Below are positions 47,561-53,405 of a stretch of DNA of 64,000 nt, in pieces. This stretch comes from Arthrobacter burdickii (lineage in GTDB: Bacteria; Actinomycetota; Actinomycetes; Actinomycetales; Micrococcaceae), in NCBI RefSeq assembly GCF_030433645.1, contig NZ_JAROCG010000002.1:620001-684000 (forward strand), given 5' to 3'. Position numbers and translations under genes: made by a program. The notes under the pieces were generated by a model that made no database searches, had not been told where the DNA came from, and worked only from the letters and a program-made list of their open reading frames with translations. Position 1 is the stretch's first letter, and each line of letters begins with the position of its first letter.

Positions 47561-48949
47561 ATGGCAGCAGCCAAGTCAGCACTCGACCCCATCATCTCTC
47601 TCGCTAAGCGGCGCGGCTTCGTGTTTCAGTCGGGGGAGATCTACGGCGGTTCCCGCTCTGCCTGGGATTACGGGCCCCTCGGTGCCGAGTTCAAGGAGAA
47701 CATCAAGCGCCAGTGGTGGCAGACCATGGTGCGCGGCCGTGAGGACGTCGTGGGGCTCGACTCCGCCGTGATCCTGCCCCGCCAGGTCTGGGAGGCCTCC
47801 GGGCACGTGGAGGTCTTCAGCGACCCGCTGGTCGAGTGCCTCTCCTGCCACAAGCGGTACCGTGCGGACCACCTCGAGGAGGAGTACGAGGAGAAGAAGG
47901 GCCGCGCTCCGGAGAACGGCCTGAAGGACGTGACCTGCGCCAACTGCGGCACCAAGGGCCAGTGGACCGAGCCCCAGGAATTCTCCGGCCTGCTCAAGAC
48001 CTTCCTCGGCCCCGTCGCCTCGGAGGAAGGCATGCACTACCTGCGGCCCGAAACCGCCCAGGGCATCTTCGTGAACTTCAACAACGTGCTGACCACCGCG
48101 CGCAAGAAGCCGCCGTTCGGTATCGGCCAGATCGGCAAGAGCTTCCGCAACGAGATCACGCCGGGCAACTTCATCTTCCGCACCCGCGAGTTCGAGCAGA
48201 TGGAGATGGAGTTCTTCGTCGAGCCCGGGACGGACGAGGAATGGCACAAGTACTGGATCGGCGAGCGCTTCTCCTGGTACACCGACCTCGGCATCAACCC
48301 CGACAACCTGCGCCTCTTCGAGCACCCGCTCGAGAAGCTGAGCCACTACTCCAAGGGCACCACGGACATCGAGTACCGCTTCGGCTTCACCGGTTCGGAG
48401 TGGGGTGAGCTCGAGGGCATCGCGAACCGCACGGACTTCGACCTCTCCACGCACTCGAAGCACTCCGGTACCGACCTCGGCTACTTCAACCAGGCGACCA
48501 ACGAGCGCTTCACGCCGTACGTGATCGAGCCGGCGGCCGGCCTGACCCGCTCGTTCATGGCGTTCCTCGTCGACTCCTACACCGAGGACGAGGCACCGAA
48601 CGCCAAGGGCGGCGTGGACAAGCGCACCGTCCTGAAGCTGGACCCCCGGCTGGCCCCGGTCAAGGCGGCCGTGCTGCCGCTCAGCCGCAACGAGGACCTC
48701 TCCCCGAAGGCCAAGGACCTCGCGGCCCAGCTGCGCAAGGCCTGGAACATCGACTTCGATGACGCCGGGGCGATCGGCCGCCGCTACCGCCGCCAGGACG
48801 AGATCGGCACGCCGTTCTGCATCACCGTGGACTTCGACACGCTCGAGGACCAGGCCGTGACCATCCGCGAACGCGACACTATGACGCAGGAGCGCGTGTC
48901 GCTCGACCAGGTGCAGGGATACCTCGCCGCACGCCTGATCGGAGCCTGA
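47561..48949 (+). CDS. glyS: glycine--tRNA ligase
   Basis: 462 residues, the homodimeric (class IIa) type. [34 protein letters not shown] is motif 1 territory and [12 protein letters not shown]...[10 protein letters not shown] is a zinc-binding insert. [16 protein letters not shown] and [25 protein letters not shown] are motif 2 and the glycine pocket; [14 protein letters not shown] is motif 3. The anticodon-binding domain is residues 370-462. GGAGAAGA precedes the ATG. The following GNAT gene begins on the last base of its stop. Confidence 0.96.
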
Positions 48950-49860
48950 TGGCCGTCGAATACCGCGCCTGGCAGGAGGGCGACGACCTCGAGCTCATCC
49001 AGCTCTGGGGCGGCCCGGAATCGGCTGCGGCCGAACAGTTCCGCGGGTCCTTCCGCACGCCGTCGGACAGTCCGTGGAACCGGTGCATCACCGTGGTAGA
49101 CCAGGGCATCCCCGTCGCCGCCGCCTGCGTGTACGGGGCGGCACTCCACCCGGACCGCCTCTGGTGCTACATCGAGGTTGCCGCGGACCACCGCCGCGCC
49201 GGCATCGGGTCGACGCTCCTCACCATGCTCCAACACGAGGCCGCCGCGTCGCCGTCGGGCATCACAGCCCTGCGGTCCAAGGTGACGCCGGGGACCACCG
49301 GCGCGGCATTCGCCGAGGCCACCGGCTTCACTGCGCTGCAGCGCTCGCGGCTCGTGATCATCGAGCCGGGTGCGCTCGCCGCGCCCGCCTTCGACGACGC
49401 CGCGGGGCCGCAACTGGAGGAAGCGGCGACCGGATCCGTGGAACTGACCCGCGCCCTCGCCTCCTTCTACGAGTCCGTCCACGGCTGGGACCGGGCGGAC
49501 ATCAGCCTGGGCCGCGCCCAGCAGCTGTTCCTCGCGGACGCGAGCGGAGCGGGCGGAGCGATCGTCCTGCGTGATCGGCCCAGGGCCGACGGCGGTGCCA
49601 TCGCGGCCTTCGCGGTCAGCTACACGCAGGCCCGGACCGATGACCCTGCGGACGTCCTGCTCGGCTACGACACCACCCTGGCGCCGCAGGAGCAGCAGGC
49701 GGCCGTGGCCACCATGATCGCGATGCTCGTGCACCAGTACCCCATCCAGCTCGAGGTGGACGACTCCATGGAGGCCCTGGTCGCCGTCGTCGAACCCCTG
49801 CTGGCCACCGGTGCCGCGCGGCTCGCCGGACCCGAGACGCTCGTCGTCGCGACCGCCTGA
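48949..49860 (+). CDS. GNAT family N-acetyltransferase, double-length
   Basis: 303 residues. The first half has the acetyl-CoA loop (EVAADHRRAGIGSTLLTMLQHE, residues 76-97) and a closing ATGFTALQRSRLVII. The second half (residues 160-303) has a similar size and strand pattern but no clear acetyl-CoA motif, so it may be a degenerate repeat. The ATG shares its first base with the glyS stop, implying coupling. Substrate unknown. Confidence 0.82.
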   Translation: MAVEYRAWQEGDDLELIQLWGGPESAAAEQFRGSFRTPSDSPWNRCITVVDQGIPVAAACVYGAALHPDRLWCYIEVAADHRRAGIGSTLLTMLQHEAAASPSGITALRSKVTPGTTGAAFAEATGFTALQRSRLVIIEPGALAAPAFDDAAGPQLEEAATGSVELTRALASFYESVHGWDRADISLGRAQQLFLADASGAGGAIVLRDRPRADGGAIAAFAVSYTQARTDDPADVLLGYDTTLAPQEQQAAVATMIAMLVHQYPIQLEVDDSMEALVAVVEPLLATGAARLAGPETLVVATA

Positions 49861-49886: not shown

Positions 49887-50702
49887 TCAGCCGCGGTCGT
49901 GCCGGCCGGCCTTCTTGTCGGCGACGTCCGCGGCGTCGCGCTCCGCGTCGGTCATCGCCCCGCCGCCGAGCCGGGCGGGCATCCACCAGGCACCCGGTTC
50001 GGGTGCCAGGGGGAAGTCGGTGATGCAGGTGTCGATGCCGTCCTGCAGTTCCCGGCGCAGCTGCTCCGTCTCCTCGGCGACATCGAGGCCGGGGGCGTGG
50101 CGGATCGGCGGGCTGACGTGGACGCGGACGGGCGCCCTCCAGGCGCGCCTGAGGGAGAACCCGTGGCCGCGGCTCAGCAGCCGGTGGGACCCCCAGACGG
50201 AGATCGGGATCACGGGCACGCCGGCCTCGGCCGCGAGCCGCACGGCGCCGGTCTTCAGTGCACGGACGTTGTAGCTGCGGGACACACCCGCCTCGGGCAG
50301 GATCGCCACGTACTCGCCGGCGCGGAGCTTTGCCAGGGCGTCGTCGTACGCCGGCGCGCCTGCCTTGCGGTCCGTGACCACGTGTCCGAGCCCGAACACG
50401 AAGGGGCTCACGAACCAGTGATCGGCAGCGCGTTTCGAGATCATGTAGCGTGCCTGGACGCGGGCGTGGTCCCACAGGACCAGCTCGGCGAAGGCGAAGT
50501 CGAGGTAGCCGAAGTGCGTGATCGCGACGACGGCGCCCGACCCGGGGACCGCGCGCCGGGATCGCCCGTGCAGCGGGTCCGGGGCCGGGAGGTTCTCCGT
50601 CCCGGTGACCGTGACGGGCAGGCGCAGCGCGGCGAAGAACGCCTTGCCCGCCTACACCACGAACCGGTACACGCGGTCGTTCTGCCGTGGCTTCCATCCC
50701 AT
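49887..50702 (-). pseudogene. 1-acylglycerol-3-phosphate O-acyltransferase-like gene with an in-frame amber codon
   Basis: Read from the ATG at 50702 (RBS GAGGGA 7 nt upstream) the frame gives MGWKPRQNDRVYRFVV, then TAG at 50654-50652. It then continues without further stops for 254 codons: AGKAFFAALRLPVTVTGTENLP, the acyltransferase HX4D motif THFGYLDF (50499-50516), and ILPEAGVSRS further on. Codons between the TAG and HX4D include no ATG, GTG or TTG. The first usable start after it is the ATG at 50444, beyond the HX4D box, so that product (185 residues) lacks the catalytic histidine. The enzyme would acylate lysophosphatidic acid in phospholipid synthesis. A single-base change (for example TAC or CAG to TAG) would explain it; sequencing error is the alternative. 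Confidence 0.8.
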
Positions 50703-50977: not shown

Positions 50978-51709
50978 TCAGACGATGATCCCGAGCGGAT
51001 CAGGAGCGCGGTAGAGCGCGGCGGACCGCTCGAGGAGGCGGGCCTCGACCGCCGCGCCGGTGTCCTCCGCGAAACGGCGGAGCAGGAACGACGTGCTCAG
51101 GCCATGCCAGACCCGAACGGTGCGGAACATGAAGTGGCCGGCCCGCGCCATGCTGACGTAGTGGACATCTGCCGCGACACCCTGGGCGCGGCGGGCGAAG
51201 GACAGGGACTCCGTGGGACTCGTCCACCGGTCGGCATCCCCGTGCATGATGAGGACGCTGCGGCCCCGCACCGGTTCCACCGGAATTGCGGGCGCCAGCC
51301 AGGGAGCGAGGGCCGCCACGGCCCGGACCTGCGGATGACCGGCGGCGTAGAGCGCCGAGAGTCCTCCCATCGAGTGCCCCAGCAGGTAGACCGGCACCGA
51401 CGGGTGCTGCACCGCGATGCGGTCGAGGGCCCACCGGGCGTCCGTCAGGGCCGACTGCTCCGCGCCGTTCCAGCCCCTCACACGATTACGCAGCGTCCAG
51501 ACGGCCAGGCCGTGCGCCGACCCGCCCGCCGCGAGGCGCGCCGCGAAGGGACGCATGCGGAGGGGGCTGAGGTGCTGGGGCTGCACGGGGTCGAAACTGT
51601 CCGCGCGACCACCGTGCAGGACCAGCGCCACGCCACGCACGGTTCCCGTCGCACCGCTCACGGTTGTTATGGGGTCCCGACCCCCTGCCGAAGATGCATC
51701 CGGTGCCAT
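50978..51709 (-). CDS. alpha/beta hydrolase
   Basis: 243 residues. GVALVLHGGRADSFD near residue 26 is the oxyanion region, VYLLGHSMGGLSALYAA near residue 103 has the nucleophile Ser in GHSMGG, IMHGDADRWTSPTES near residue 162 holds the acidic residue, and MARAGHFMFR near residue 193 the histidine. It resembles monoacylglycerol-lipase or lysophospholipase-type enzymes. There is no signal peptide. AAAGGGA precedes the ATG at 51709; an in-frame ATG 33 nt upstream has weaker support. It is transcribed toward the broken acyltransferase, 275 bp away across a repeat-rich spacer. Confidence 0.86.
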   Translation of the reverse strand: MAPDASSAGGRDPITTVSGATGTVRGVALVLHGGRADSFDPVQPQHLSPLRMRPFAARLAAGGSAHGLAVWTLRNRVRGWNGAEQSALTDARWALDRIAVQHPSVPVYLLGHSMGGLSALYAAGHPQVRAVAALAPWLAPAIPVEPVRGRSVLIMHGDADRWTSPTESLSFARRAQGVAADVHYVSMARAGHFMFRTVRVWHGLSTSFLLRRFAEDTGAAVEARLLERSAALYRAPDPLGIIV

Positions 51710-52049
51710 GGACCGTCCCTTTCCGCCCGGAGGCCTGTTCATGCTGCAACGCCCTGCCGGCATCATCGTCGGGCATGCCCTGCCCGGCTGGCTCCCAGCA
51801 TGCCCTGTCCTCGGGCCGGCGGGGCGCTCCCGCGAATCATGCGGTGCCTCCGCACGATCGCACGCGTTCCTGCGTAGAATCCGAGAGGTGCGCCGCGGTC
51901 CTGGTGCTGGTCCGGCTCGCCCTGCAGTCGATGGGCGTTCCGTCCCGCCACCCGTCCCGCGCGACGTCCCGCACGCTGTCCGGCACGGCGTCCCGCACGG
52001 CGTCCAGCACGCACCGTCCGACCACCGAACGACCATCCGAGGGAAGTCC
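51710..52049 (+). other. 340-bp divergent spacer before the YibE/F gene
   Basis: It holds a TAGAAT hexamer at 51875-51880 followed 7 nt later by an in-frame GTG (51888). A run of short GTCCCGCACG-like repeats lies at about 51950-52015. If the GTG is the true start the YibE/F protein has a 54-residue low-complexity lead; otherwise the hexamer serves a leader of about 160 nt. Confidence 0.5.
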
Positions 52050-53405
52050 GTGGGCACCAGCCACCTCCACCCGACCGAGAGTCCGGGGCCCGCCGCGATC
52101 GCGATGCGGCGACGGGCCACCCTGCTGCTCTCGGCGATCCTCGTACCCGTCGGGGTCATCACCCTCATCGCCATGGTGCTCCTGTGGCCGGACGGGGACC
52201 GCAGTTCCCTCTCGGTCACCAGTCCCTACGCGACGGCGGAGGGGGTCAGCTTCGAGCACGGCACCGTCCGCGAGGTCCGGGAGGGCGACTGCCCGTCGTC
52301 GCAGCCGACGGTCGACGCCGGCGGCACCGCGCTGACCTGCACGATCGCGGACACACAGCCGGCGAAGGGGGGAGACGTGATCCCCGTGGAGGTGACGCCC
52401 GAACTCGCGAAGACCGACGCGGTGGAGGTGGGCGACGAGATCCGCTACCTCGACCTCTCCACGGTGATGCAGGGCGGAGCGGCACCGTACGTGTTCGTCG
52501 ACTTCGTGCGCTCGGTCCCGATCGTCGCGCTCGCGGTCGGATACGCCGTCGTCGTCATCGCGGTGGCCCGGTGGCGGGGACTGCGCGCCATCATCGGACT
52601 CGTGGGCGCCCTGGTCGTCCTGGCGCACTTCATCCTCCCCGGCCTCGTGGAGGGCCGGCCGCCCCTGCTGCTCGGGCTCGTGGGATCCGTGGTCATCATG
52701 TACGGCGTCCTCTATTTCGCGCACGGCTTCTCCGCCCGGACGTCCACCGCCCTGCTGGGAACCGTCTTCGGCCTCGGCGTCACGGCGGTCCTCGCGGCCT
52801 GGGCCACGGACGCAGCCCACCTCACCGGCGTGGGCGACGAGAACGCCTACACGCTCGTCAATGCCTCGGACGGCCTCTCGATCTTCTCGGTCATCCTGTG
52901 CGGCCTCATCATCTCGGGCCTCGGCGTCCTCAACGACGTGACCATCACGCAGTCCTCGTCCGTCTGGGAGCTGTACGAGCTCGCACCCGACACCCCGGGC
53001 CGCAGGCTCTTCTCCTCCGCGATGAGGATCGGCCGCGACCACATCGCCTCCACGGTGTACACGATCGCCTTCGCGTACGCAGGGGCGGCGCTTCCCGTCC
53101 TGATCCTCGTCTCCCTCTACGACCGCGCCCTGATCGACACCCTGACCAGCGGGGAACTCGCTGAAGAAGTGGTGAGGACGCTCGTCGGCTCGATCGGCCT
53201 GGTCCTGGCCATCCCGCTCACCACCGGAGTGGCCGTGCTCGTGGTCAAGGCGGTCGACCCGAAGAGCACGGGCGGGCGCGACGACGGCGGCATCGGTGCG
53301 ACGACGGCGGAGCCCGCCGGTACCCCGGGCACCCTCGCCCCGGGTGCTCGGCTCGTGGCACTCGGCGGGCCCGGTGCCCGGCGCAGGACGGAGCCGGGCG
53401 CATGA
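52050..53405 (+). CDS. YibE/F family membrane protein
   Basis: 451 residues. A short N-terminus with a GTSHLHP His cluster precedes TM1 (LLLSAILVPVGVITLIAMVLL). An extracytoplasmic domain of about 110 residues follows, then seven membrane segments from about residue 150, including VILCGLIISGLGVLNDVTITQSSSVWEL, the family hallmark. The role is unproven; transport has been proposed. The GTG at 52050 has GAGGGAA just upstream and gives the usual His-containing N-terminus. The last 50 residues are Gly/Ala/Pro-rich. Confidence 0.85.
   Translation: MGTSHLHPTESPGPAAIAMRRRATLLLSAILVPVGVITLIAMVLLWPDGDRSSLSVTSPYATAEGVSFEHGTVREVREGDCPSSQPTVDAGGTALTCTIADTQPAKGGDVIPVEVTPELAKTDAVEVGDEIRYLDLSTVMQGGAAPYVFVDFVRSVPIVALAVGYAVVVIAVARWRGLRAIIGLVGALVVLAHFILPGLVEGRPPLLLGLVGSVVIMYGVLYFAHGFSARTSTALLGTVFGLGVTAVLAAWATDAAHLTGVGDENAYTLVNASDGLSIFSVILCGLIISGLGVLNDVTITQSSSVWELYELAPDTPGRRLFSSAMRIGRDHIASTVYTIAFAYAGAALPVLILVSLYDRALIDTLTSGELAEEVVRTLVGSIGLVLAIPLTTGVAVLVVKAVDPKSTGGRDDGGIGATTAEPAGTPGTLAPGARLVALGGPGARRRTEPGA

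Follow-up and report, generated by a model that had tools for sequence, protein, structure and literature searches.

We examined a PlsC-like (PF01553) acyltransferase gene with one in-frame TAG on the minus strand of a 64,000-nucleotide stretch of Arthrobacter DNA, hereafter the window (G000:C2:620001-684000), and in our reading a PlsC-like paralogue that the cell can dispense with has recently lost its function through a nonsense mutation; to this we give a probability of roughly 0.78. The gene occupies 49887..50702 (271 codons plus the terminal stop). Its frame starts with ATG at 50702, runs through 16 codons (50655..50702) to the TAG at codon 17 (50652..50654), and then stays open in the same phase for 254 sense codons, up to a terminal stop whose last base is 49887. 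The HX4D box, HFGYLD (codons 63–68, 50499..50516), lies in the part after the TAG. The source genome (G000) is an Arthrobacter of the agilis group, with 3.95 Mb in 8 contigs and a completeness of 100%.

An earlier, sequence-only reading of this DNA had described the same succession of start, 16 codons, TAG and long open frame with the HX4D box, and reading the frame confirmed it. That reading had also stated that no usual start codon separates the TAG from the HX4D box, which held as well: from codon 17 to the box we found no in-frame ATG, GTG or TTG, but only ATC at codon 61 and three CTG codons (26, 28 and 44). Not until codon 87 (50444), already past the HX4D box, does an ATG follow in frame, and it starts a 185-amino-acid open reading frame (ORF; 49887..50444, minus strand) that lacks the box. 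Translation from the native start is expected to yield the 16-codon N-terminus and nothing more.

The acyltransferase frame is a real gene and not a chance open frame, because the part after the TAG matched PF01553 with 80.8 bits (cut-off 23) and the gene had a DNA match in 33 out of the 37 other genomes of the genus, i.e. in 34 out of 38 when G000 is included. The N-terminal sequence MGWKP(R/Q)Q(N/S)DRMYR was kept in the closest relatives, while some distant relatives had different beginnings; M1 was invariant in an alignment of 24 rows. The idea that the start was mis-called and truly lies 3' of the TAG was rejected given the lack of ATG, GTG and TTG before the HX4D box and the conservation of the N-terminus in the closest relatives. 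Codon 11 (50670-50672) was GTG (Val) in this genome and ATG (Met) in the nearest relative (G027) and in all 13 outgroup species compared; being upstream of the TAG, this codon could not serve as a rescue start.

Codon 17 among relatives and the age of the stop

The sequence-only reading had proposed aligning homologues to see which residue replaces the stop. We read the matching codon in 32 of the 33 other gene-bearing genomes of the genus (G021 was left out), and all of them had a sense codon: Tyr in 18, Arg in 7, His in 6 and Asn in one. A stop in a gene that is intact in close relatives is what would be expected of a recent nonsense pseudogene. The sister species G027 had a Tyr codon that is one base away from TAG. 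Of the rows in the 24-row alignment, 11 come from more distant relatives, and these had Leu, Arg or Gly at the site; therefore codon 17 does not encode a conserved catalytic residue. In Arthrobacter agilis strain 4041 (NZ_NFSC01000025.1, corresponding in position to contig G027:C18) the orthologous protein was 97–98% identical and had the same start, within the same gene order as here (glyS, GNAT, acyltransferase); it has a sense codon at 17, where this genome has TAG, and Met at codon 11, where this genome has Val. Of the papers listed in a literature search on the acyltransferase gene in A. agilis, none was judged relevant.

The frame carries the mark of purifying selection. Between G000 and G027 the acyltransferase had a synonymous divergence (dS) of 0.117 and a nonsynonymous divergence (dN) of 0.0118, giving a dN/dS of 0.10; the median dN/dS for the same two genomes was 0.136 over 34 ORF pairs chosen from 44 picks in the window, a set that still includes a pair whose tail is misaligned (0.34) and at least one ORF that is evidently on the wrong strand (ratio 5.5). 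After the TAG, the differences from G027 fell on codon positions 1, 2 and 3 in the numbers 4, 1 and 24, respectively, so that 24 out of 29 were at the third position. When changes were polarised by the majority of the 13 outgroup species (with a V/I site at codon 109 nearly tied), the G000 branch had, apart from the stop, 4 replacements and 11 synonymous changes, and the G027 branch had 3 replacements and 11 synonymous changes. A wholly neutral branch predicts about 22–31 replacements; therefore, under simple Poisson assumptions, the time since loss is at most about 22–32% of the branch. Two of the replacements in G000 were at sites invariant in the 13 outgroups, but G027 also had one such replacement and these sites therefore carry little weight against a sequence error.

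The part of the frame after the TAG thus still looks coding. The stop is either very young or a base-call error, because dN/dS is 0.10, 24 of the 29 differences are at the third position and codon 17 is sense in each of the 32 orthologues read. These two alternatives, in a gene otherwise under constraint, are what the sequence-only reading had put forward, and the sense codons of the relatives, the dN/dS and the lack of a recoding signature (see below) support it.

Possible sequence error, readthrough and recoding

Two points weigh against a real mutation. First, no relaxed selection after the stop was visible when the two branches were compared (4:11 vs 3:11 replacements to synonymous changes; Fisher p = 1), an absence that a base-call error explains equally well. 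Second, the TAG base rests on a single assembly of one strain and is unverified. The main rival explanation, which we consider much less likely than the mutation, is a single-base assembly error, with the gene intact in the cell. That the stop is unique to G000 and that its TAG is one base from the codon of the sister species would both fit such an error.

The comparison of G000 with a 187-kb contig of G027 speaks on the other side. Out of 147 ORF picks, which comprise true genes and some shadow ORFs so that the true gene count is smaller, 13 were flagged for a stop or a frame change in G000, and the acyltransferase was the only one of the 13 judged by eye to be a real-gene break in that genome. 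The 12 others were assigned, also by eye, to upstream over-extension, antisense shadow or overlapping ORFs, ORFs fused with non-coding sequence upstream of them, a C-terminus that ends naturally, and a frameshift of G027. With those 12 accounted for, we found no support for an error-rich assembly. The number of contigs and the completeness of the genome do not suggest one either, though a single base may nevertheless be wrong. Nonsense errors are as a rule few per genome, which also speaks against an error. In the reverse comparison 12 out of 142 picks were flagged, one of which was looked at further, as the pair of the G027 frameshift: a peptidase-like gene, which we take to be an M16-type peptidase from its sequence, is open over 456 codons in G000 and changes frame in G027 after about codon 172 (L148:1002-1814 vs L141:2224-3594).

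It is improbable, in our judgement, that the gene is still functional, with the TAG partly read through or with translation starting at one of the CTG codons (26, 28 or 44), giving a low-level or N-terminally shortened enzyme. The constrained downstream frame would be in keeping with this, as would the position of the CTGs before the HX4D box and the start of the Pfam match at about codon 30. A survey of bacterial in-frame stops argues that readthrough may be common (PMC7918605). The short-lived stops that it describes likewise lie in frame, in genes with dN/dS below 1. However, the survey centred on stops in orthologues of at least two species, in order to limit artefacts, and in its authors' view most such stops are without functional recoding (PMC7918605). 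The stop studied here is present in a single genome and in none of the relatives read. By eye, there was no good Shine-Dalgarno sequence at proper spacing before the CTGs, and a CTG start would delete a helix predicted at residues 9–26.

The decoding apparatus also argues against readthrough. At the ends of 32 chosen genes of the window the stop codon was TAG in 12 and TGA in 20, so TAG terminates other genes. The release factor RF1 is present in G000 as an open frame (481.8 bits vs a cut-off of 423.25). Among the 47 tRNA matches in the genome, ARAGORN predicted no CTA anticodon (46 loci covering the 47 matches; 69 predictions, some redundant through overlap). A recoded stop would be expected to be conserved among relatives, and this one was shared by 0 out of 32; nor was RF1 missing or a CTA-anticodon tRNA found. 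Programmed recoding is not supported. We regard as very doubtful the related idea that the TAG is a reversible expression dial, in which amber readthrough or CTG initiation would turn the enzyme down and not off while selection on the frame continues. The in-frame TAG inside a conserved gene could be cited for an amber codon that is reassigned or suppressed throughout the genome or in this strain, but this was rejected as extremely improbable on the 12 of 32 window genes ending in TAG, the RF1 score and the lack of a predicted CTA anticodon.

Enzyme family, paralogues and probable losses in the genus

Both H63 and D68 of the HX4D box were invariant in the 24 aligned rows. Further downstream the gene has PEAGVSRS, shared with most of the 24 rows and replaced by PEGGVSRS in three Kocuria rows, with P136, E137 and G139 invariant; it may be a variant of the PEGT-type motif. 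PEAGVSRS in place of PEGT (50274-50297) was accompanied by a strongly conserved C-terminal motif around GAWWMP...GG.A (49956-50003). In sequence, GAWWMP and PEAGVSRS together look like a signature by which a subfamily of PlsC-like enzymes in the Micrococcaceae could be recognised. In the three other paralogues of G000 the motif corresponding to PEAGVSRS is PEGT.

The model of the protein with the TAG read through had a mean predicted local distance difference test score (pLDDT) of 82.7. Its best fold match was the PlsC 1-acyl-sn-glycerol-3-phosphate acyltransferase of Thermotoga maritima (PDB 5KYM; template-modelling scores 0.59/0.65, E 9.4e-11, 20% identity), which places it in the PlsC fold, followed by mycobacterial PatA and glycerol-3-phosphate acyltransferase. 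In a sequence comparison with the PDB, no entry other than 5KYM matched at E ≤ 0.01. With 43.5 bits, the gene remained below the 102.95-bit cut-off of TIGR00530 (AGP acyltransferase, NCBIfam), as did the three paralogues (66.7–75.5 bits); therefore we do not claim a lysophosphatidic acid acyltransferase specificity.

G000 has four PF01553 paralogues, of which the broken gene is the fourth. The sequence-only reading had suggested searching the genome for a second HX4D acyltransferase, on the expectation that the cell relies on another PlsC-type enzyme. The search returned three more PF01553 genes, each with an open frame, an HX4D box (HVTEID, HLSFSD and HLSFLD) and a PEGT motif, which fits that expectation. 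Paralogues need not be interchangeable, however, since the PlsC-type PlsM of Mycobacterium tuberculosis is reported to be essential despite five other PlsC homologues (PMC10593935). The better argument for dispensability comes from species without the gene.

Four out of the 37 other genus genomes (G004, G017, G022 and G026) had no DNA match to the gene. Each has 3 PF01553 genes, whose scores resemble those of the other three paralogues of G000 (a comparison of scores, not an orthology from trees), and G027 and G003 have 4 each. In G000 the acyltransferase gene is followed by a convergent GNAT-family gene (48949..49860, plus strand), which served as a synteny marker; upstream, in the same orientation as the acyltransferase, there is an alpha/beta-hydrolase ORF (50978..52219, minus strand), whose mechanical start, judged by eye, is probably too far upstream. 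At the corresponding site of the four genomes the GNAT gene and dus were present and the acyltransferase was absent beside these conserved neighbours. The site data are uneven: the GNAT gene of G022 is split over two contigs, the hydrolase match of G017 is weak, and the hydrolase is absent from G026, a genome that is only 68% complete. When the site in these genomes was searched for remains of a decayed acyltransferase gene, nothing matched at E < 0.01 (lowest 0.019).

In a tree of the GNAT gene, three of the four gene-less genomes could be placed (G022 was not), and they fell in three separate places. Starred forks lay between G017 and G004, and species that have the gene were nested beyond these two; G026 was on a long branch in the other main group, at an unstarred fork. 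The simple reading is that the gene was lost repeatedly in the genus; one loss and a later regain within the G017/G004 group is a possible alternative.

All loci at least 80% identical to this one carried Arthrobacter titles, with one exception. That record, 'Vibrio cholerae strain 35D' (L035, WNZI01000039.1), has an Arthrobacter-type acyltransferase locus with a protein 85% identical, and it is probably mislabelled or contaminated.

In the nonsense-mutation reading, a single-base substitution in this Arthrobacter strain would have created the TAG at codon 17 of a PlsC-like acyltransferase gene with an accessory role, and translation from the native start would end after 16 residues. As no ordinary start precedes the catalytic HX4D box, no active enzyme would be expected. 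If the base is right, the stop would be so young that the remaining frame keeps its recent pattern of purifying selection. The three other open HX4D acyltransferases would presumably cover phosphatidic acid synthesis, and the TAG would be expected to cost the cell one spare enzyme. Other bacteria are known to have accessory PlsC paralogues that differ in acyl preference: in Shewanella livingstonensis, which belongs to a different phylum from Arthrobacter, PlsC4 and PlsC5 stand beside a principal PlsC, and mutants with plsC4 or plsC5 inactivated have been made (PMC9541089).

The event is ordinary, because the gene is intact in most relatives and wholly missing from a few. Its significance beyond annotation is small: until the base has been checked, the annotation of this strain should show the gene as disrupted. 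The case illustrates cleanly, on a small scale, a very early stage in the loss of an accessory PlsC paralogue, with three paralogues kept and with apparent outright losses elsewhere in the genus. Comparing two strains that differ in the stop could reveal what share the fourth paralogue has in membrane lipid composition.
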